Source: Nocardiopsis xinjiangensis YIM 90004 (GTDB lineage Bacteria > Actinomycetota > Actinomycetes > Streptosporangiales > Streptosporangiaceae). Taken from it: a stretch of DNA of 64,000 bases. The position numbers were made by a program, and so were the translations under genes. Below the pieces are notes generated by a model. That model did no database searches. It had not been told where the DNA came from and worked only from the letters and a program-made list of their open reading frames with translations. The stretch covers positions 90,197 through 154,196 of the forward strand of contig NZ_ANBE01000009.1 in NCBI RefSeq assembly GCF_000341145.1. Reading direction: 5' to 3'. The stretch's first letter is position 1; every line of letters begins with the position of its first letter. Below are positions 29,086-58,313 of this stretch, piece after piece.

Positions 29086-29162
<77 letters not shown>

Positions 29163-29282: not shown

Positions 29283-29359
<77 letters not shown>

Positions 29360-46826: not shown

Positions 46827-49454
46827 ATGAGTGGTGCGAACGACCTGGATTCCGTCACGCCCCCGACCCCGTCGGCGATGCGCAGGGCCCTGGCCCGCGC
46901 ACGGGACGGCAAGACCCTCGATGCGACCGAGGCCGAGGTACTCCTGCACGCGCGCGGGGAGGACCTCCAGACCCTGCTCGGCCACGCCGGCCGTGTGCGC
47001 GACACCGGACTGGAGGCCCATGGACGCCCCGGTGTGGTCACCTACAGCCGCAAGGTCTTCCTCCCCCTGACCCGTCTGTGCCGAGACCGCTGCCACTACT
47101 GCACGTTCGCGACCGTGCCCGGCAGGCTCGAGGCCCCGTTCCTGTCCCCGGACGAGGTTCTCGACATCGCGAGGAAGGGTGCGGCCCAGGGTTGCAAGGA
47201 GGCCCTGTTCACCCTCGGCGACCGGCCCGAGGACCGTTGGAGCCAGGCGGCCGAGTGGCTGGGCGCCCACGGTTACGACGACACCCTCTCCTACGTCCGG
47301 GCCATGGCGATCATGGTGCTGGAGGAGACCGGCATGCTCCCGCACCTCAATCCCGGGGTGATGACCTGGTCCGACCTGCAGCGCCTCAAACCGGTCGCCC
47401 CGTCCATGGGGATGATGCTGGAGACCACCTCCGAACGGCTGTTCACCGAGAAGGGACAGGCCCACTACGGCAGTCCGGACAAGGACCCGGCCGTGCGCCT
47501 GCGGGTGCTGGAGGACGCCGGCCGTTCCAGCGTCCCCTTCACCACCGGGGTCCTCCTCGGTATCGGCGAGAACCACACCGAGCGCGCCGAGTCGATCTTC
47601 GCGATGCGCGGGGCCGCCCGCCGCTACGGCGGGATCCAGGAAGTCATCGTGCAGAACTTCCGCGCCAAACCGGCCACCGCGATGATGCACCGCCCCGACG
47701 CCGAGATCGAGGAGATGGCCGCCACCATCGCGGTGACCCGTCTGGTCATGGGGCCCAAGGCGCACATCCAGGCGCCGCCCAACCTCATCGGCGGCGAGCA
47801 CGGCGGCCGCGACGAGTACGCACTCATGCTCCGCGCCGGGATCGACGACTGGGGCGGGGTCTCACCGCTGACCCCCGACCACGTCAACCCCGAACGCCCC
47901 TGGCCGCAGATCGAGGACCTGGCCGCACGCTGTACCGAACACGGCTTCACCCTGCGCGAGCGCCTCACCGTCTACCCCGAGTACGTACGCGCGGGCGAAC
48001 CCTGGCTGGACCCGCGGATCTCCGGTCACGTGGCCGCCCTCGCCGAACCCGGGACCGGTCTGGCCGCCGAGGACGCCCCCGTGCGCGGCCGTCCGTGGCA
48101 GGAGCCCGAGGCCGCTCTGGCCTCGTCCGGGCGCACCGACCTGCACACCGGGATCGACGCCGAGGGGCGTACCGGTGACCGGCGCGGTGACTTCGACGCG
48201 GTCTACGGCGACTGGGACGAGCTCCGCGAGGGTGTGGACCGCCGGGGTGCCGTGCCGCGGCGGTTCGACCCGGAGATCGCCGCTGCCCTGCGGGCCGCCG
48301 AGGAGGACCCGGCCGGGCTCGACGACGACCAGGCGCTCGCGCTGCTGCACGCCGACGGCCCCGAGCTGGAGGCCCTGACCGGGCTGGCCGACCGGGTGCG
48401 GCGGGACACCGTCGGCGACGACGTCACCTACATCGTCACCAGGAACATCAACTTCACCAACGTCTGCTACACGGGCTGCCGCTTCTGTGCCTTCGCCCAG
48501 CGCCGCACCGACGCCGACGCCTACACACTGTCCCTGGACCAGGTCGCCGACCGGGCCGAGGAGGCGTGGAAGGCGGGTGCGACCGAGGTGTGCATGCAGG
48601 GCGGCATCCACCCCGACCTGCCGGGCAGCGCCTACTTCGACATCGCGTCGGCCGTGCGTGACCGGGTCCCGGACATGCACGTGCACGCCTTCAGCCCGAT
48701 GGAGGTCGTCAACGGGGCCGCGCGTACCGACCTGCCGGTGCGCGAGTGGCTGACCCGGGCCCGCGACGCCGGCCTGGGGTCCCTGCCGGGCACGGCCGCG
48801 GAGATCCTCGACGACGAGGTGCGGTGGATCCTCACCAAGGGCAAACTCCCCGCCCGCGAATGGATCGACGTGGTCACCACGGCCCACGACCTGGGGATGG
48901 CGACCACGTCCACGATGATGTACGGGCACGTGGACTCGCCCCACCACTGGGTGGCGCACATCAAGCTGCTCCGGTCGTTGCAGGAACGTTCACTGGAGCG
49001 CAACGGCCGTCCCGGCTTCACCGAGTTCGTACCGCTGCCGTTCGTGCACACCAACGCACCCATCTACCTGGCCGGACTGGCGCGCACCGGGCCGACCGTG
49101 CGGGAGAACCGGGCCGTGCACGCGTTGGCGCGGCTGTTGTTGCACGGGGCGATCGACAACATCCAGTGTTCGTGGGTCAAGCTCGCCGAGGACACCTGCC
49201 GGCAGTTGCTGGCCGGCGGGGTCAACGACGTCGGCGGCACCCTCATGGAGGAGACGATCAGCCGGATGGCCGGATCCGATGAGGGCTCGTACAAGACCAT
49301 CAGCGACATCCGGGAGCTGGTGGAGCCCACGGGCCGTCCACTGCGCCAGCGCACGACGCTGTACGGAACGGTCCCGCAGGAGCGGGTCCGGGTGGCCGAG
49401 GAGAGCGACGGGGTGGCCCCCAGCATCCTGCGTCCGAACCTGCCGCTGGTCTGA
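46827..49454 (+). CDS. fbiC: FbiC, fused CofG/CofH F0 (deazaflavin) synthase
   Basis: An 875-residue bifunctional radical-SAM protein. The CofG half carries C85-x3-C89-x2-C92 (CRDRCHYC) and the CofH half C547-x3-C551-x2-C554 (CYTGCRFC), each binding a 4Fe-4S cluster. Together they condense tyrosine with a pyrimidine from riboflavin synthesis to make F0, the chromophore of coenzyme F420. Fusion into one chain is the actinobacterial form. fbiA and fbiB lie 5-7 kb away. A 12-bp bidirectional terminator follows. Confidence 0.96.
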
Positions 49455-49473
49455 GCCCGCGGTCACAGAAGAA

Positions 49474-49504
49474 GGGCGGGGCGCCGGGGGAGGGCGCCCC
49501 GCCC
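49474..49504 (+). terminator. Bidirectional terminator between fbiC and the chitinase gene
   Basis: 12-bp perfect stem (49474-49485 with 49493-49504), 7-nt loop, followed by TCTCTTTC. Confidence 0.85.
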
Positions 49505-49530
49505 TCTCTTTCGGCGGATCGGTCGGCGGG

Positions 49531-50559
49531 TCAGTTCAATCGCGGCGAGACCGTGTCGGCGAACTCGTAGCCGTTCGCGGCGTCCCAGTTGATCGACCAG
49601 GTCATCACGCCGCCGATGGGTCCGTAGGGCGATTCGGGCGCGAAGGAGCCGCAGGACCGGCCTTCTTCGAGGCAGTCCAGGGCGTCGACGACGCCCTGGG
49701 GATCCATGTACCCGCCGCCGGCGGCGGCGGGGGTGGCGGGCAGCCCGAGGCCGACCTGCTCGGGCTCCAGGCCCATCTCGAGCTGGATGCAGGCGAGTGC
49801 GGCCACGAAGTCCGAAGTGCCCTGCTCGTACACCGAACCGTCGCAGCCCAGCATCGAACCGGAGTTGTAGTACTGCATGTTCACCAGGGTGAGGATGTCG
49901 GAGATGTTCTCCGCGAGCTGGTAGTAGCCCTGGCCGGGGGTCTGGAAGTCGATGGTCTGCGGCGCCATCGTGATGATCGGGTCGGTGCCGGACAGCTCGT
50001 CGAGCTGCCGCAGGGCGCCGGTCATGTGCTCGGCGTCGATGCCGTGCTCGAGGTCGATGTCGACGCCGTCGAACCCGTAGTCCTCCATGAGTTCGTGGGT
50101 GGTCTCGGCGAAGTTCTCGGCCTGGGCGGGGTTGGTGACGTCGACGTGCCCGAGCTCGCCGCCGACCGAGATGATCACGTTGGTCCCGTCGGCCTGGAGG
50201 GCGGCGAGGTCGTCACGGAACTCCTGGTCGGTGTAGCCGCCGAGCTCGTCGCCGGCGAGCTCGAAGGTGATGCCGCCGTCGAGTTCGGGGTGGTTCTCGG
50301 CGAAGGCCACGGCCACGAGGTCGTACTCCTCGGGGACGTCGCCGAGCGGCATGACCGTGGAGCCGTTGTCGAAGTTGTGCCAGTACCCGGTGAGCCACTG
50401 GCCGTTCTGCTGGGGTGCGGTGTCGGCGACGGTCTCGGCCTCGGCCGTCTCGGGGCCCTGTGCGGCGACGGTGACGCCTGCGGCGCCGAGCGCGAGGGCG
50501 GCGGTCAGAGCGAGCCCGGTGCGGGGTCCGGTCCTTCTCCTGTGGCGGTGGGTGCTCAA
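49531..50559 (-). CDS. Secreted GH18 chitinase-like glycoside hydrolase
   Basis: A 342-residue secreted protein: twin-Arg-rich signal region (RHRRRTGPRTGLALTAALALGAAGVTVAA), then a GH18 barrel. The catalytic DxxDxDxE motif is DGVDIDLE with Glu171; upstream strand VIISVGGE and downstream MTWSINWD are typical. It has no chitin-binding module. The start appears to be TTG 50559 with AAGGA six nt upstream. The promoter carries a strong AT-rich palindrome. Confidence 0.9.
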   Translation of the reverse strand: MSTHRHRRRTGPRTGLALTAALALGAAGVTVAAQGPETAEAETVADTAPQQNGQWLTGYWHNFDNGSTVMPLGDVPEEYDLVAVAFAENHPELDGGITFELAGDELGGYTDQEFRDDLAALQADGTNVIISVGGELGHVDVTNPAQAENFAETTHELMEDYGFDGVDIDLEHGIDAEHMTGALRQLDELSGTDPIITMAPQTIDFQTPGQGYYQLAENISDILTLVNMQYYNSGSMLGCDGSVYEQGTSDFVAALACIQLEMGLEPEQVGLGLPATPAAAGGGYMDPQGVVDALDCLEEGRSCGSFAPESPYGPIGGVMTWSINWDAANGYEFADTVSPRLN

Positions 50560-50624
50560 GGGGGGTCCTTCCGTCGAGCGGGGGGACGAAGGCGGGCTCC
50601 GGGGAGCCCCCGAATTGTGAAGAA

Positions 50625-50653
50625 ACCTTAAAGTTGTACCGCCATCCCGTCAA
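50625..50653 (-). promoter_or_regulatory. Chitinase promoter
   Basis: On the minus strand: TTGACG (50653-50648), 17-bp spacer, TAAGGT (50630-50625); a near-consensus principal-sigma promoter. Confidence 0.75.
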
Positions 50654-50656
50654 CGT

Positions 50657-50681
50657 AAACTGGAAAGTTAGTTTGCAGTTT
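50657..50681 (-). promoter_or_regulatory. AT-rich palindromic operator next to the chitinase -35
   Basis: A 25-bp palindrome with outer AAACTG/CAGTTT and inner AAA-T/A-TTT, mismatched only at a few G/C positions. It starts three bases upstream of the -35, a position used by activators or overlapping repressors. Its low GC content stands out in this genome. Regulator unknown. Confidence 0.6.
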
Positions 50682-50865
50682 TCTTGGGGACGCGGTCCCG
50701 GCTCTACCGGTCGCTCTCGGCGGTCGGGGCGGCCCTGTTCGCTTTCCTGGGCGGTCGCCCGGGGCGATGCGGGCCCATGAGGCCGTAGAGTAAAGGACTG
50801 ATGACCGTAAGTATCGAACGCGGCCGCTCCGGTCCGGTCGAAGCGCAGGAGAAGGAAGGTACCGG

Positions 50866-51888
50866 GTGTTGGACCGAGGGACCACCCCCCACGAACGGAC
50901 CGAGGCTCCCCTGGCGGAAATCGTTTCAGCGGCGATGCTCCTGCATGCCGTGTCGGCCCTGCTCGAACTGGGTGTGGTGGAACGCCTGAAGGAAGGCCCC
51001 CGGGACCTCCGTGAACTCGCGCTCGGTTCCGGCGCCCACGAGGAGCGCTTGCTCGCCGTCCTGCGCCCGGTCGCTGCGGCGGGTCTGGTCCACGAATCCG
51101 CACCCGGGACCTTCGAGCTGACCCCGGCAGGGCGGCATCTGCGCCGTGACGACCCTCTGGGGCTGCGCGACCTCTTCCGGATGTGCACCCACGGCGATTT
51201 CTTCCAGGCCTGGACCCGACTGGCCCGGTCGGTGGAGTCCGGCCGTACGGCCTTCGAGCTGCAGACCGGGAGCGATCTCTTCCTCTACCTGGCCGAACGG
51301 CCCGAGGAAGCGGAGCTCTTCCACCGGGCGATGAACGCCTCCGCCCCCGCCGACGTGCTCCTGGAGGCGGCCGACCTGTCCGGTGCCCGGGTGGTGGCCG
51401 ACCTCGGTGGGGGAGAGGGGGCCACCATCGCCGCCGTCCTCCGGGCCTGTCCCGCGAGCACCGGTGTGCTCTTCGACCTGCCCGACGTGGTGGCCGGGGC
51501 CGGCCCACTCCTGCGCCGGGAACAGGTGGCCGACCGGTGCGACGTCGTGGCCGGTGACTTCTTCGACGGCGTACCGGACGGAGCCGACGTCTACGTCATG
51601 GCCCGTGTCCTGCAGAACTGGCCACCTGAGGAGGCGGTCCGGATCCTGCGTAACGTGCGTGCGGCGATGTCCGGCACGTCCCGCCTGCTCGTGGTCGGTC
51701 ACCTCTCCGAGTCCACACGCCCCAGCCCCTTCGTCGAGGCCATCGGTCTGAGCATGTTCGTGCTCTACGGGGCGGTGTCGCGCACCTCCGAGCAGTACGA
51801 GGCACTCTTCGCCGAGGCGGGGCTGGCTCTGAGCAGGACGCACCGTGTCCGGGACGGGGAGTCGGTCATGGACGTTCGCCGCGCATAG
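50866..51888 (+). CDS. SAM-dependent methyltransferase 1 of the cyclodipeptide cluster
   Basis: A 340-residue protein of the plant-O-methyltransferase-like family: winged-helix dimer domain (LAEIVSAAMLLHAVSALLELGVVERL), SAM loop VVADLGGGEGATI, VLFDLPDVV, GDFFDG. At the position of the catalytic His of O-methyltransferases (H-x-W) it has VLQNWP, Gln instead of His. An N-methyltransferase role on the diketopiperazine ring is therefore plausible. GAAGGAAGG lies seven nt before GTG 50866. Its last 23 bp overlap the convergent CDPS gene. Confidence 0.87.
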   Translation: MLDRGTTPHERTEAPLAEIVSAAMLLHAVSALLELGVVERLKEGPRDLRELALGSGAHEERLLAVLRPVAAAGLVHESAPGTFELTPAGRHLRRDDPLGLRDLFRMCTHGDFFQAWTRLARSVESGRTAFELQTGSDLFLYLAERPEEAELFHRAMNASAPADVLLEAADLSGARVVADLGGGEGATIAAVLRACPASTGVLFDLPDVVAGAGPLLRREQVADRCDVVAGDFFDGVPDGADVYVMARVLQNWPPEEAVRILRNVRAAMSGTSRLLVVGHLSESTRPSPFVEAIGLSMFVLYGAVSRTSEQYEALFAEAGLALSRTHRVRDGESVMDVRRA

Positions 51889-52588
51889 GAGGCCGGACCA
51901 CGACATGTCCCTGTCCGGGGTCGAAGCAGGTTCCGTCCTCGTAGAGTTCCGCCACGACCGGGAGCAGGTCGTGATAGCAGGACACCGAGGAGGGCACCCC
52001 CAGCACTCTCGGGGTGGCGACGAGGAAGGGGAGCTCCGAACGCAGGTAGGACAGGCCGGCACGGAACCGGTCGTCCTCGGCACAGAGCCGGCCTCCCAGT
52101 ACACGGTTCACGTGTTCCTCGCATGCGCGGCGCACCTGCGGATTGCCGTCGAACTCCCGGTCCAGGTGCTGCTGGACGGCGCGGTAACCGGGCAGGTCGA
52201 CGGTCTCCGACAGCGCCATGGAACGCAAGCGTGCCGGGGCGGTCCCGACCGCCTCGACCGCACGGCGGATGCGCCTCCGAACGTCCCGGAGGGCTCTCTT
52301 GGTCCTGCGCGCGGCCTGTTCCTCATCGGCCCCACCGGCCTGGTGCATCGTGTTCAGGTGGAGGTCGGTGTGGAGGACGTCGACGCGGTGGAAGCGCCGG
52401 ACCGCCCAGTCCAGCAGCTGGGTGAGCCGCTCCTGATTGAAATAGCTGTTGCCGGTGCTGACCCCGATGAGAGCGTGGTCGCCACGGGTGAGCAGGTCGG
52501 CGCAGGAGGGCGTGAAGGGTCGTACCTCGAACCCGTCGCCGTCCCGGTGCTGGGGCACGGTCCGTACAGGTTCAGGCCGAGACGGCAT
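51866..52588 (-). CDS. albC: tRNA-dependent cyclodipeptide synthase (CDPS, AlbC type)
   Basis: A 240-residue CDPS, a class-Ic-tRNA-synthetase-like fold that joins two amino acids taken from aminoacyl-tRNAs. Catalytic Ser44 sits in IGVSTGNSYFNQ; Tyr181 and Glu185 in LSYLRSELPF and Tyr205 in VPSSVSCYH correspond to AlbC Tyr178, Glu182 and Tyr202. Asn47, Tyr205 and His206 place it in the NYH subfamily. Basic helix RTKRALRDVRRRIRRAVE is the probable tRNA contact. GGAGGGG precedes ATG 52588, which overlaps the albB end by 17 nt. Confidence 0.95.
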   Translation of the reverse strand: MPSRPEPVRTVPQHRDGDGFEVRPFTPSCADLLTRGDHALIGVSTGNSYFNQERLTQLLDWAVRRFHRVDVLHTDLHLNTMHQAGGADEEQAARRTKRALRDVRRRIRRAVEAVGTAPARLRSMALSETVDLPGYRAVQQHLDREFDGNPQVRRACEEHVNRVLGGRLCAEDDRFRAGLSYLRSELPFLVATPRVLGVPSSVSCYHDLLPVVAELYEDGTCFDPGQGHVVVRPPMRGERP

Positions 52589-52892
52589 CGGTCCCCTCCA
52601 ACACGGACGCGAGCCGGTCGCACAGGTCGTCGAGGAGGACGTCGAGTTCACGGTCGGCCATCGCCCCGCACATGACGTCCTCCATCCGCGATCGCAGTTC
52701 CGGCAGTCCCGGGTGGTCCCCGTGCCCCAGGTCGGCGCGGAGGGAGAGCACACGGCGGGCGGCGTCCAGGCATCGCAGCGGGCCGTACTCGCGGGGCTCC
52801 TCCAACAGCCCGCGGCCGCTGCTGAGCAGGTAGGCGGAGAGCAGCAGGAGCTCCTCGCCGGTGCGGGGACCGTCAGCCTCGCCAGCGGTCAT
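52572..52892 (-). CDS. albB: Cyclodipeptide oxidase small subunit (AlbB type)
   Basis: A 106-residue protein recognised as AlbB-like from LSAYLLSSGRGLLEEPREYGPLRCLDAARRVLSL and from its place between the AlbA and CDPS genes. AlbA and AlbB together form the flavin-dependent cyclodipeptide oxidase that dehydrogenates side-chain C-alpha/C-beta bonds of the diketopiperazine. GAGGTGAT lies upstream of ATG 52892. It overlaps albA by 20 nt and the CDPS gene by 17 nt. Confidence 0.85.
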   Translation of the reverse strand: MTAGEADGPRTGEELLLLSAYLLSSGRGLLEEPREYGPLRCLDAARRVLSLRADLGHGDHPGLPELRSRMEDVMCGAMADRELDVLLDDLCDRLASVLEGTDAVSA

Positions 52893-53424
52893 GGCTGATC
52901 ACCTCGTTCCTGTCACGTCGTGGGGCGGACTCGATGGGCCGGGCCGGGTGCCCGATCGGAACCAGGAGCAGGGGTTCCAGGTGGTCGGGGAGCCCGAGGA
53001 ACCTCTGGACCGGGCTCTTGCGGAAGCTGGCGGAAGGACACCCGCCCAGCCCGAGGGCGTGCGCCGCGAGCAGCAGATTCTCCACCGCCATCGCCACACA
53101 GAGCATCCCCTCGTCCCAGGCACCGCCGCCCACAGCGCGGGAACGGTCGAAACAGGCCGCCACGATCAGCGGAGGCGGTTCGATGATGCCCGGGGAGAAG
53201 GCCCGCACCAGCCGAAGGGTTCTGCTGCGGCGGATCGTGACGAAGGCCCATGCCTGCTTGTTGGAGGCCGAGGGGGCCGCGAGCATGGCGTCCAGCATGG
53301 GGTCGAGGAGCTCGTCCTCCACCGGCCGTCCGTCGAAGGAGCGGACCACACGCCGTGTGGTCAGTACTCGCAGAGCGGGGGTGGCCCGGTCCTCGGTCCG
53401 TGTCCCAGTGTCGGTGCTCAGCAC
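52873..53424 (-). CDS. albA: Cyclodipeptide oxidase large subunit (AlbA type, nitroreductase fold)
   Basis: A 183-residue nitroreductase-fold flavoprotein: TTRRVVRSFDGRPV and APSASNKQAWAFVTI at the FMN site, AMAVENLLLAAHALGLGGCPSASF in the dimer core. This is shorter than free-standing nitroreductases and fits AlbA. The start is a GTG at 53424. First gene of the albA-albB-albC operon, in which each gene overlaps the next, so translation is coupled. Confidence 0.9.
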   Translation of the reverse strand: MLSTDTGTRTEDRATPALRVLTTRRVVRSFDGRPVEDELLDPMLDAMLAAPSASNKQAWAFVTIRRSRTLRLVRAFSPGIIEPPPLIVAACFDRSRAVGGGAWDEGMLCVAMAVENLLLAAHALGLGGCPSASFRKSPVQRFLGLPDHLEPLLLVPIGHPARPIESAPRRDRNEVISHDRWRG

Positions 53425-53533
53425 CCTTACTCGCTCTCTGTGAATTTACGATTCCGAAGAGTAATATACAGTGCTGACCGACCCCTCCGACAACGTTCGG
53501 AACAGGGACGACCACCGGAAAGGCATCGCGAAC
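53425..53533. promoter_or_regulatory. AT-rich divergent promoter region of the cyclodipeptide cluster
   Basis: About 53440-53472 is AT-rich, unlike its surroundings. TAATAT (53462-53467) is a good -10 for the rightward methyltransferase gene, and TAAATT on the minus strand (53449-53444) may serve albA. No convincing -35 is visible for either, suggesting activator dependence. Confidence 0.45.
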
Positions 53534-54568
53534 GTGCCCACCGCTCCCCTCACCCGCGCCGGCTTCAGCGGCCCGGCCCTGCGCCTCTACGAACTGATCA
53601 CCGCGAGCTGGGTGGCCTCCGCCGTCAGCGCGGCCGCCGAGCTCGGCGTGGCCGACGTGATGACGGCCGAACCCCGCAGTGCGGAGGAGATCGCCGCCGA
53701 GATCGGTGCCGACCCCGAGACCCTCCACCGGCTCCTGCGCGCCTGCACCGACCTGGAACTGGTCGATCTGGTGCCGGGGCGCGGGTTCGCACTGACCGGT
53801 CTCGGGCGGGCACTGCGCGGAGACGCTCCCGACTCCATGCGCGCCTACGCCCGGTGGATGGGCACACGGGCCGAGCGCTCCACCATGGCGTACCTGGCCG
53901 ACGCCGTGCGCACCGGAGGCCCGGTCTTCGAGGACGTGCACGGGATCCCGGTCTGGTCCTACATGCGCAACGCTCCCGGGACCGCCGCTCTCTTCGACCG
54001 CGGGATGACCGACATCTCCGCCCAGCTCACCCGCAGCATCGTGGACGAGTACGACTTCGGTGGCATCGAGTGCCTCGTCGACGTGGGCGGCGGACACGGC
54101 CGACTGCTCTCGCTGCTTCTGGAGGCGCATCCCCGCATGCGCGGTGTGCTCTTCGACCGGCCCGAGGTGATCGCCCGACCGGAACCCGCACTCACCCGGG
54201 GGGACGTGGCCACGCGCTGTCGGGTCGAGGGCGGCGACTTCCTGGAAGGGGTTCCGGCCGGGGCGGACGCCTATCTTCTCGCGAGCGTCGTCCACAACTG
54301 GAACGACGAGGACGCGGCGCGGATCCTTTCCCGTTGCCGGGAAGCCGTCGCACCACGGGGGCGGGTCCTGCTCGCCGAAGTCCTGGTACCGGAGGGGCCC
54401 GAGCCCGCACCGACCGCCACGCTCATGGATCTGAGCATGCTGGTCCAATGCGGTGGCAAACAGCGCACGGAGCGCCAGTTCGCCGATCTGCTCCGGGACT
54501 CCGGGTTCCGGCTCGAACGGATCGTGCCCGCGCAGGGGATCGCCGTCGTCGAAGGGACACCGGCCTGA
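53534..54568 (+). CDS. SAM-dependent O-methyltransferase 2 of the cyclodipeptide cluster
   Basis: A 344-residue methyltransferase with the same architecture as methyltransferase 1: dimer domain (LRLYELITASWVASAVSAAAELGV), SAM loop CLVDVGGGHGRLL, VLFDRPEVI, GGDFLEGVP. It keeps the catalytic His in VVHNWNDEDA, fitting an O-methyltransferase (for example of a tyrosyl hydroxyl). GTG 53534 has GGAAAGG upstream. An in-frame GTG at 53471 lies on or before the predicted transcription start, so it is less likely. Confidence 0.87.
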   Translation: MPTAPLTRAGFSGPALRLYELITASWVASAVSAAAELGVADVMTAEPRSAEEIAAEIGADPETLHRLLRACTDLELVDLVPGRGFALTGLGRALRGDAPDSMRAYARWMGTRAERSTMAYLADAVRTGGPVFEDVHGIPVWSYMRNAPGTAALFDRGMTDISAQLTRSIVDEYDFGGIECLVDVGGGHGRLLSLLLEAHPRMRGVLFDRPEVIARPEPALTRGDVATRCRVEGGDFLEGVPAGADAYLLASVVHNWNDEDAARILSRCREAVAPRGRVLLAEVLVPEGPEPAPTATLMDLSMLVQCGGKQRTERQFADLLRDSGFRLERIVPAQGIAVVEGTPA

Positions 54569-54607
54569 ACCATACGGGGCCGGAGCGCGCGCATCCGGCC
54601 CCGGGAA

Positions 54608-55903
54608 CTAACGCACGACGACGAAACCGTCCGGGTCACGCGGTGGACGGTCGCCCGGCGGCTCGGCCGGATACCCCACGGCCACCGATCCCATCGGCTG
54701 CCAGTCGGTCGGCAGGTCCAGGACCTTCCGGACCACGTCGGCGCAGAACATCGTCGAGGAGATCCACGCCGAACCCAGGCCCTCCATCGCCAGGCCCACG
54801 AGCAGGTTCTGCACCCCCGCACCCATCGCCACGTGGAACATCGTGCGTTCCGCGTCCGCGCGGCGCTCGTCCGGGTAGGGGTGGGCGCCGTCCGCCACCA
54901 GGAACGGGACGACCAGGGACGGGGCGCTGCGCAGCACGTCGCCGCGCCGGGTACGCCGGGCGATCTGCTCCTCGGTGAAACCGTCGCCGCGCAGATCCGC
55001 GATCCACGCCTCGAGCATCGCGTCCAGCAGGCGCTCGCGTACCTCCGGCGACTCCACCAGCACGAACCGCCACGGCGTCGTGTGGTGCGGCGCGGGTGCG
55101 GTCACCGCCGAGGCCACCGCCCGCCGCACCAGGGCCGGCTCCACCGGGGCGTCGGAGAAGGAGCGCACCGTGCGCCGGGCCGGCACCACGTCGCGCGAAC
55201 CGAACCGGAACAGGTCCGCGTCGGCCGGCCGCACCAGTGCGGCCGCACCGGGACCGTCCTCCTCGGTGACCATGTCGGCCAGGCCGCCGACCACCGCCAC
55301 GGGTACCCCCGCGGTCTTGCCCTTGACCAGTTCCCCGGCGCCGGCGATCTCGTCGGCGACCGCGTTGACCGTGGCCTCCATGATCTGTCCACTGCTGTCG
55401 GGGGTCCCGCGCAGGTCCTCCAGGGGCTGCATCCCGGACGCCCCGATGGCCACGTCGGTCTGACCGGTGCGCCAGGGACGGCCGAAGGTGTCGGAGACCA
55501 CGACCGCCACGTTCACACCGAGACGCTCGCGCAGCCCTGCCCGCAGCGCCCGGGCCGAGGCGTCGGAGTCCTCGGGCAGCAGCAGCACCGTGCCCGGCTC
55601 GACGTTGGAGGCGTCCACCCCAGCGGCCGCCATGACCAGGCCCTGGCGGGTCTGCACGATGCGGGTGTGCCCGGCCCGGGCCACCACCCGCTCGGTCTCG
55701 GCGGTGATGGCGTCGTCGCGTTCCATCCGGCGCGAGCGCCCCTCGGCCTTGCTCACGATCTTGGACGTCACGACGAGCACGTCCCCGTCGACCAGGGGCG
55801 TGCCCGAGGAGCGGACGGCGTCGGCGATCAGGTGCGCCAGGTCGTCGCCCTCCCGCACCTCCGGAACGCCGGGCAGGCCGCGGACCCGCAGTTCGGTGAT
55901 CAC
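54608..55903 (-). CDS. fbiB: FbiB, F420 gamma-glutamyl ligase / nitroreductase fusion
   Basis: A 431-residue two-domain protein. The N-terminal CofE domain (about 1-245: [51 protein letters not shown]) adds glutamates to F420-0. The C-terminal nitroreductase-like domain ([35 protein letters not shown]) reduces dehydro-F420 with FMN. The GTG start overlaps the fbiA stop (GTGA). Confidence 0.95.
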
Positions 55904-56880
55904 GCGCGCGCCTCCGAGAGTTCGGTCGCCAGGTCCACGGCGGCGCGGGCGAGGGCCTCGGTGGCCTCCGGGCCGTTCATGTACAGGGGCCGGGAACGCA
56001 CCTCGATCCCCTCGACCCCGGTGCCGGCGTCGGCCTCGTCGACCAGCCACCCGTCGAGCAGGTCGGATCCCAGGTGCTCGGCGACCGCTCCCGCGTCGGT
56101 CTCCACCCCGATGGCGGACAGGCAGGCATCGGCCATGCCGCGTACGGGCGCGCCCCCGATGATGGGGGAGACCCCGACGACGGTCTTGTCGAGCATGGCC
56201 TCGCGGATCCCGGGGACCTGGAAGACCGAGCCCACACTCACGACCGGGTTGGACGGCGGCAGGATCACCGCGTCCGCCTGGGCGATGGCCTCCAGCACGC
56301 CCGGTGCCGGCTTGGCCGACTCGGCGCCCATGGCCACGAACCGGTGGGCCGGGAGGGCGGCACGGTGCCGGATCCACCACTCCTGGAAGTGGATCGCGCG
56401 CGTGCGGCCCTCCTCCTCCACGACCACGTGCGTCTCCACCTGGTCGTCGGTCATCGGCAGCAGCCGCACCCCCGGCTGCCACCGGTCGCACAGGGCCTCG
56501 GTCACCGCGGAGAGAGGGAAACCTGCGGCGATCATCTGCGCGCGTACGATGTGCGTGGCGGTGTCACGGTCGCCGAGGCCGAACCATGTGGGCTTCATCC
56601 CATAGGCGGCGAGCTCTTCCTTGACTGTGAAGGACTCGTCCTTCCTCCCCCAGCCCCGGTCGTCGTCGATGCCGTCGCCCAGGGTGTACATCACAGTGTC
56701 CAGATCCGGACAGATCCGGAGCCCGAACAGTGTGATGTCGTCGCCGGTGTTCCCGATGACGGTGATGGAAGGGTCTGTGGTCTGCTCTTCGGAGGCCGGC
56801 GCGTCCGTCCCGAGAGCGGCCTTGAGGCCGCGGAGGAAACGGGCGCCGCCGATACCGCCGGCAGGTACGACTATCCGCAT
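55900..56880 (-). CDS. fbiA: FbiA, phospholactate/PEP-dependent F0 transferase (CofD)
   Basis: A 326-residue CofD-family enzyme: [53 protein letters not shown] and [12 protein letters not shown]. It joins the activated phospho-C3 unit to F0 to give (dehydro)F420-0. ATG 56880 starts right at the conserved first strand. First gene of the fbiA-fbiB operon; whiB lies nearby, as in other actinobacteria. Confidence 0.95.
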
Positions 56881-57128
56881 GCGTCCAAGTCTGGCAGGCT
56901 GGGAACACGTATGGGTCGTCTGCCCCGCGGTGCGACCCGAGCGGCGTGTGACCGTACCGAGATCGGGGGTTCGCGAACCCCGGTACGTAGGCCGCCATCC
57001 CACTTCACGGCCCGGAGTGTCCGGCTGTCCCCATTTCTGTCTGGACCCGGCCGATTCACCCGACAGTCCGACGATATGCCAAGCTTCGACCGACGCGACG
57101 GCGATGCAGCGGAAGAGGGGAACCTCTC

Positions 57129-58313
57129 TTGAACAACGAAACACTAGAACGCTTGCGCCTTCCCGCGGCGTGGGTCCTGATCGGTGCGGTCGGGGCCTCG
57201 ATGCTGTCGGGGCTGATCGGCCTGATCGCGCAGACGAGCGGTGCCGGGGAGTACCGGACCGAGGGGAGTTTCCCCTCGGCGGTGCTCTCCCACGCCAGTG
57301 ACTTCTTCGGGCTCTCCGTCGTGGTCTTCCTGGCGGCGGCGGTCGCGCTGGTGCTGACGAGTGAGCGCACCAAGCCCTCCGCTCTACCGATCGTCGTCAC
57401 CGCGATCGTCATGAGCGGTGTGGGCCTGCTGTTCGTGCTGATCAACGCCATCACCGTGTTCATGGTCGAGACGGGCTCCGTCGCCTACGGGTTCACCAAC
57501 TTCATCGGCACCCTCGGCAGCGGTGCGGTGCTCGGCCTGTTCGGGTTCTTCCTCCTGAAGGCTTTCAACGACCCGAACCTGGTGCCGCGCCCTGTGCCCC
57601 AACCCGGCCAGTACAACCCGCAGGGTTTCCCGCCCGCGACCGGCGCCCAGCAGTCCTTCGCCGGCTACGGCCAGGACATGTACGGCCAGCAGCAGGGCTT
57701 CGGCCAGGACGCCTACGGTCAGCCGGTGGCCTACGGAACCGGTGCGCAGCAGGCCTACGGCCAGGACATGTACGGCCAGCAGCAGGCCTACGACCCGTCC
57801 GCCTACGGTCAGGACGCTTACGGTCAGCAGGTTTACGGCAGCGGTGCGCAGCAGGCCTATGACCCCTCGGCCTACGGTCAGGCCTACGGGACCGGCGGCC
57901 AGCAGGCCTACGGTCAGGACGCCTACGGCCAGCAGCAGGCCTACGACCCCTCCGCCTACGGCCAGCCGGCGGCCTACGGGCAGGGTTACGACCCCTCCCA
58001 GTACGCTCCCCAGCCCGGCGCCGACCAGCCCCAGTCGGCCTCCTCCGGCGAGCAGGCGGCCTTGGACGCCATCCAGTACGGCTGGTACCAGGGGGCCGAC
58101 CAGCAGTACCAGCAGGGCCAGGACACACCGTCCGCCCCCGGAGTTGACCCATTCTTTAACTCCGGTGAGAACGCTGGTACCGATGCGTCCTCGCAAGGTG
58201 GCGCGGGCTACGGAGGTGCATACGGGAACTCCGGTGCATACGGCTCTGACCAGCAAGGACAGGGTGGCTCCGGGGGTCAGCAGGGTTGGTACGGCAACGA
58301 CGGTCAGCGCTGA
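57129..58313 (+). CDS. Four-helix membrane protein with Tyr/Gln/Gly-rich repetitive tail
   Basis: A 394-residue protein. Residues 1-150 contain four membrane helices (about 13-35, 57-76, 85-108, 122-145). Residues 155-394 are low complexity, dominated by YGQ, QQAYG and AYDPSAYGQ units, with very few charged residues, like prion-like or phase-separating sequences. The start is TTG 57129 with AGAGGGG eight nt upstream. Lies between fbiA and whiB. Function unknown; the tail should be cytoplasmic if helix count and the short N-terminus are right. Confidence 0.8.
57652..58010 (+). repeat. Degenerate YGQ / AYDPSAYGQ coding repeats
   Basis: Repeated peptide units [25 protein letters not shown] and GAQQAYG recur through the tail of the membrane protein, with near-identical DNA (for example GGCCAGGACATGTACGGCCA twice). 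Confidence 0.75.

Follow-up and report, generated by a model that had tools for sequence, protein, structure and literature searches.

Putative nocazine/XR334-type cyclodipeptide cassette of Nocardiopsis xinjiangensis YIM 90004 with glutamine at the usual catalytic-histidine position of one methyltransferase

The DNA analyzed in the present study (the window) is a 64,000-nucleotide stretch of contig 9 (NZ_ANBE01000009.1) of the 5.33-Mb genome of Nocardiopsis xinjiangensis YIM 90004, and at positions 50866–54568 it carries genes for a cyclodipeptide synthase (CDPS), both subunits of a cyclodipeptide oxidase and two methyltransferases, designated here MT1 and MT2. Sequence comparison makes it very probable that these genes form a complete Nocardiopsis cassette of the nocazine/XR334 type, which would direct the synthesis of a methylated, dehydrogenated aromatic diketopiperazine, and it supports reading the cluster as a diverged sister of the nocazine pathway already known from Nocardiopsis. 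In the proposed route, the CDPS would use Phe-tRNA and Tyr-tRNA to form mainly cyclo(Phe-Tyr) (cFY) together with side products, as its pockets and orthology suggest; the AlbA/AlbB oxidase, a flavin mononucleotide (FMN) enzyme judging by its conserved residues, would add one or two α,β double bonds; MT1 would then methylate the tyrosine phenol, and MT2 an oxygen or nitrogen of the diketopiperazine ring, as predicted from their orthology to Ndas_1149 and Ndas_1145, respectively. The find adds a diverged copy to a characterized natural-product pathway and is otherwise ordinary; what is new here is that Gln invariably takes the place of the usual catalytic His in the MT1/Ndas_1149 line.

Gene organization and relation to the nocazine cluster

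The cassette begins with MT1 (50866–51888, plus strand), an S-adenosylmethionine (SAM)-dependent protein of the Methyltransf_2 family (PF00891, 124.6 bits), followed on the minus strand by albC (51866–52588), encoding a 240-residue CDPS of the NYH class (PF16715, 246.6 bits; TIGR04539, 261.5 bits), albB (52572–52892), encoding the small oxidase subunit (Pfam family DUF6092), and albA (52873–53424), encoding the FMN subunit (Pfam Nitroreductase). MT2 (53471–54568, plus strand), a second SAM-dependent Methyltransf_2 protein (PF00891, 172.5 bits), closes the set. Each of the five proteins scores above its own Pfam cut-off, and these family profiles bear out the sequence-only reading, which had placed a CDPS, a two-subunit oxidase and two methyltransferases at 50866–54568; the coordinates likewise agree with its minus-strand albA-albB-albC order. 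Its description of both flanking methyltransferase genes as outward-read holds for MT2, which diverges from albA, and is wrong for MT1, because both methyltransferase genes lie on the plus strand and MT1 therefore converges on the CDPS gene, with a 23-bp overlap of the 3′ ends.

All five reading frames are open. The CDPS gene starts at ATG 52588, which results in overlaps of 20 bp between albA and albB and 17 bp between albB and the CDPS gene; an overlap of 20–30 bp is given for genes of the albA/albB type in PMC7487605. The true start of MT2 is probably GTG 53534 and not 53471, being preceded by the sequence GAAAGG, which recurs across the aligned loci of the intergenic alignment. The 109 bp from albA to this probable start (53425–53533) include an AT-rich block, partly conserved in a 10-locus alignment, and probably contain divergent promoters; a consensus scan of 50560–54700 gave no sigma-70-type site.

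Locus L026, on a 5,767,958-bp contig (G008), carries counterparts of all five genes, arranged and oriented as in the window. The AlbA protein of this locus shows no difference from 9EXV_A across the 192 residues after the start residue, and 9EXV_A is Ndas1146 of N. dassonvillei (PMC11760959). Owing to this identity, L026 can be taken as Ndas_1145–1149, the published nocazine cluster, in which Ndas_1148 is the CDPS with cFY and cyclo(Phe-Phe) (cFF) as main products, Ndas_1146/1147 the oxidase, Ndas_1149 a tyrosine O-methyltransferase and Ndas_1145 a ring O-/N-methyltransferase (PMC4159871, a review by the authors of the pathway). The layout of the N. dassonvillei nocazine/XR334-type pathway, which had been suggested for the window from its letters alone, was thus found in the order and orientation of L026, and gene order makes MT1 the Ndas_1149 orthologue and MT2 the Ndas_1145 orthologue. 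The two clusters also share the CDPS class, the oxidase active site and the His/Gln pattern of the methyltransferases, with identities of 58% (CDPS), 63% (MT1), 65% (MT2), 66% (AlbB) and 73% (AlbA). They differ in chromosomal site: the window cassette lies between fbiB and a GH18 gene adjoining fbiC, whereas L026 is about 3.1 Mb away from the fbi genes.

The cassette of N. coralli (L002/L018) occupies the same site as that of the window, between fbiB and the GH18/fbiC genes, and its proteins are 71% (CDPS), 73% (MT1), 82% (AlbA) and 88% (AlbB) identical to those of the window. In contrast to the window, a match to MT2 is absent, leaving albA and fbiB no more than about 250 bp apart (L018, 10646–11445), and an open reading frame (ORF) of 531 codons stands between the GH18 gene and MT1. 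This natural variant without MT2 could help to tell apart what each methyltransferase does. The albonoursin genes albA-albB-albC of Streptomyces noursei likewise combine a CDPS with a two-subunit oxidase, and the solved structures 3oqv and 8uc3 rank among the best matches of the window proteins; however, the albonoursin oxidase is more distant from that of the window than the nocazine one (182 against 295 bits for AlbA), and albonoursin bears no methyl group. Going by its description, the N. prasina pair CDPS-Np/CDO-Np is also similar, with a Nocardiopsis CDPS forming mainly cyclo(Phe-Tyr) and an oxidase adjoining it; the term “methyltransferase” is absent from the text of that paper (PMC7044140).

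Active sites, specificity pockets and the predicted scaffold

The best solved relative of the window CDPS is AlbC (3oqv), and residues Ser37, Asn40, Tyr178, Glu182, Tyr202 and His203 of AlbC align with Ser44, Asn47, Tyr181, Glu185, Tyr205 and His206 of the window enzyme. The catalytic residues Ser44, Tyr181, Glu185 and Tyr205 named in the sequence-only reading are accordingly in place in the 240-residue numbering, together with the NYH-class residues Asn47 and His206. For the oxidase, the best solved relatives are 9exv_A for albA (E 2e-87) and 9exv_C for albB (E 4e-38), that is, the subunits of NdasCDO, a filament with FMN covalently bound to Cys121 (PMC11760959). Cys109 of the window AlbA aligns with this Cys121. 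Comparison over the 15 residues named in the excerpts of that paper showed that all nine active-site residues of AlbA are kept, along with five of the six in AlbB (E32, P33, Y36, R40 and M78), F39 being replaced by Leu. The AlbB family is still labelled DUF6092 in Pfam, although its function as an oxidase subunit is known and a structure has been solved.

Specificity was approached through the pocket positions and motifs of PMC5816076 (Table 2), the assignment of table rows to CDPS numbers being inferred from the text of that paper. The window pockets read LGLTLFLS (P1) and HRVGDLP (P2, with position 159 uncertain beside an alignment gap), and those of Ndas_1148 read LGLALLLC and HHVAAMP, a difference at three of eight and four of seven positions, respectively. 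The nearest listed P2 is the Tyr-accepting HFVGKLP (5/7 residues in common), which is paired with P1 LGVAIFLC; the text points to CDPS 66, with 94% cFY (PMC5816076). For P1, six of eight residues are shared with each of two motifs, LGLVLFLT (Phe) and LGVALFLS (Trp), and none of those listed comes nearer. From these motifs, our best guess is that P1 accepts Phe and P2 accepts Tyr, giving mainly cyclo(Phe-Tyr), a combination without exact precedent. The sequence-only reading had proposed a comparison of the pockets, with residues matching a non-aromatic clade to count against it; because the nearest listed motifs belong to aromatic-accepting enzymes, the comparison does not lead to such a clade.

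Several observations nevertheless weigh against this assignment. P1 is as near to the Trp motif as to the Phe motif, no exact match to LGLTLFLS occurs in Table 2 of PMC5816076, and the sole argument against Trp is the rule of its authors that the Trp-accepting enzymes listed there have VA or IA at P1 positions 3–4, which are LT in the window. Moreover, the window P1 shares only 5/8 residues with Ndas_1148 and 4/8 with the cFY enzyme that has the nearest P2, and overall CDPS identity to Ndas_1148 is only 55–58%. Products also vary among Nocardiopsis enzymes, being cyclo(Phe-Met) (cFM) and cFF for CDPS 62 of N. potens and cFY and cFF for N. dassonvillei, according to the literature. Finally, an N. 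xinjiangensis CDPS expressed in Escherichia coli is described there as yielding no product, and this inactive protein could be the enzyme of the window itself.

A different main scaffold, such as cyclo(Phe-Met), cyclo(Phe-Leu), cyclo(Tyr-Tyr) (cYY) or a Trp-containing one, with MT1 acting on minor products only, is a possible, if unlikely, outcome. The Thr at AlbC position 67 in P1 is found in cYY motifs, but only two of eight P1 residues agree with the cYY motif VGITMLFN; the six residues shared with the Trp motif are set against the missing VA/IA pair and the rejection by NdasCDO of large side chains such as that of tryptophan (PMC11760959). The cFM and cFF products of CDPS 62 also favor another scaffold, and opposed to this are the resemblance of P2 to a Tyr-accepting P2 and the retention of a tyrosine methyltransferase orthologue beside the CDPS. 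Cyclo(Phe-Tyr) is preferred here as the probable main scaffold. A second CDPS type was noticed in two Nocardiopsis genomes (L027 and L028); its P1, LGVALFFS, agrees with a listed Trp-accepting motif, and no alb matches lie nearby.

The methyltransferases and Gln250 of MT1

Enzymes of the PF00891 family normally carry a catalytic His. MT2 keeps this residue (His275), and so do the five best solved relatives of MT1 at the corresponding position, while MT1 itself has Gln250 there and is still a family member by profile despite lacking the His. Gln is present at this position in all 10 Nocardiopsis orthologues of MT1 (Ndas_1149 among them) from a sample of 40 genomes of the genus, including that of the window strain, and also in a relative encoded in G489, a genome of another GTDB genus. 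In the methyltransferase tree, the 10 MT1 copies, including the gene adjoining the CDPS gene in L026, form one clade, as do the eight MT2 copies used (of nine; that of G009 was omitted), including the L026 counterpart beside albA. Among 33 PF00891 loci of the genus that were read, namely the top scorers among 93 matches together with three from the window's own genome, His was found in 32, seven MT2 copies included, and the lone Gln was that of MT1; the nine other MT1 copies, all with Gln, lie outside these 33. The residue is not mentioned in the passages on Ndas1149 consulted in PMC4159871 and PMC5767969, and a literature search on DtpM returned nothing on that enzyme among the matches listed.

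The absence of the usual catalytic His in MT1 speaks against its assignment as the tyrosine phenol methyltransferase. Of six other family-level relatives of MT1 that were read, five have His and the sixth (L149) has Gly there, so that loss of the His is not unique to MT1. DnrK-like enzymes provide a precedent for such a loss, which is therefore unusual in MT1 and not unheard of. The roles of the two enzymes might also be reversed, with the His-bearing MT2 acting on the phenol and the His-less MT1 on the ring amide. This seems quite improbable: PF00891 phenol methyltransferases usually use the His that MT2 has kept, and the Gln of all 10 MT1 orthologues points the same way, but gene order puts MT1 at the place of Ndas_1149 and MT2 at that of Ndas_1145, the published tyrosine O-methyltransferase and ring methyltransferase, respectively (PMC4159871). 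Phenol methylation by MT1 and ring methylation by MT2 are thus retained as the predicted roles.

A speculative and rather doubtful explanation of the invariant Gln is that the Ndas_1149/MT1 line represents a PF00891 branch that works without a catalytic His as the oxidase acts first. The phenol of dehydrotyrosine, conjugated to the acyl-enamide ring, might be so acidic that proximity alone would suffice for its methylation; if so, the oxidase would chemically license methylation, and the order of the pathway would therefore be fixed. The question of whether the methylation needs a base is a mechanistic one, raised by the invariant residue, that can be tested. A methyltransferase of Streptomyces iconiensis (L004, 5928–6872), encoded beside albA/albB/CDPS genes, has Gln at the His position as well and could be a parallel case. 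A shared Gln-type clade of this protein and MT1 was considered and found to be unsupported, the S. iconiensis protein forming a long branch elsewhere in the tree, and its Gln apparently arose independently.

The G489 genome, one of another GTDB genus that emerged from a family draw of 200 genomes, encodes an MT1 relative (56% identity) beside a CDPS (55%) in the same convergent layout (L155, 3045–4889). Matches to albA, albB and MT2 are absent from the 6-kb contig that carries this pair, which counts against the reading proposed here. MT1 can hence occur without an adjacent oxidase, and this weakens the licensing idea, unless the oxidase is encoded elsewhere in G489. Ndas1149 is stated in the excerpts of PMC5767969 to be found only in Nocardiopsis.

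Distribution, chromosomal sites and neighboring features

In the genus sample, a CDPS match was detected in 12/40 genomes, MT1 in 10/40 (61–100% identity) and MT2 in 9/40 (62–100%), all 10 MT1 genomes being among the 12 with a CDPS. The CDPSs of the remaining two (G019 and G030; 39–41% identity) had no albA, albB or methyltransferase match in the fetched stretches. The five genes occur together in nine genomes, the tenth cassette being that of N. coralli without MT2, and order and orientation are identical in 9 of the 10 genomes with the CDPS type of the window (the window's own counted), which is beyond chance. One of the copies counted as present, that of G009 (84% complete), has frameshifts in AlbA and MT2; this detracts from the picture of an intact cassette, and the frameshifts are probably assembly errors. 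In a phylum-wide draw of 396 genomes, six had a CDPS at E ≤ 1e-10, with that of the window among them.

Comparison of the flanks by blastn (tblastx gave only noise in this high-GC DNA) placed the cassette at about five chromosomal sites: site A in the window and N. coralli, site B in G022 and G009, site C in G003, G014 and N. dassonvillei, site D in G017 and G005 (with weak flank similarity) and site E in G002. Viewed as an insertion or deletion, the site-A cassette spans window positions 50701–54587, for which the close relative G015 shows an empty site of about 37 bp (blastn and junction alignment). A silent or decayed cassette that makes no product would agree with this absence in near relatives and with the patchy distribution (10/40 genomes), but it is highly unlikely in view of five open frames, conserved active-site residues and the published nocazine pathway, which is built on the same five proteins (PMC4159871).

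Relationships among the cassettes, ((A,C),(B,(D,E))), do not conflict with a host tree built for the 40 genomes on fbiC and FbiB, and the two trees agree in the main groups; support for the deep split is modest (84/88), and a single A+B clade was not rejected (p-AU 0.18). This agreement makes ancient vertical inheritance, accompanied by losses and relocations, the simplest account. Horizontal transfer had been considered owing to the closeness of the site-A and site-B proteins, and it was set aside in view of the compatible trees.

The cassette of the window is wedged into a coenzyme F420 locus (46827–57144), with fbiC and the GH18 gene on one side and fbiB and fbiA on the other. A functional link to F420 biosynthesis was rejected, only two of the 10 cassettes being located at fbi genes and NdasCDO using covalent FMN. 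An ORF at 57129–58313, with no Pfam match, encodes a hydrophobic stretch followed by a long Gln/Tyr/Gly/Ala-rich repeat run ([11 protein letters not shown]-like). Elsewhere in the window, two tRNA-Met (CAT) genes with equal Rfam scores are located 120 bp apart, at 29086–29162 and 29283–29359.

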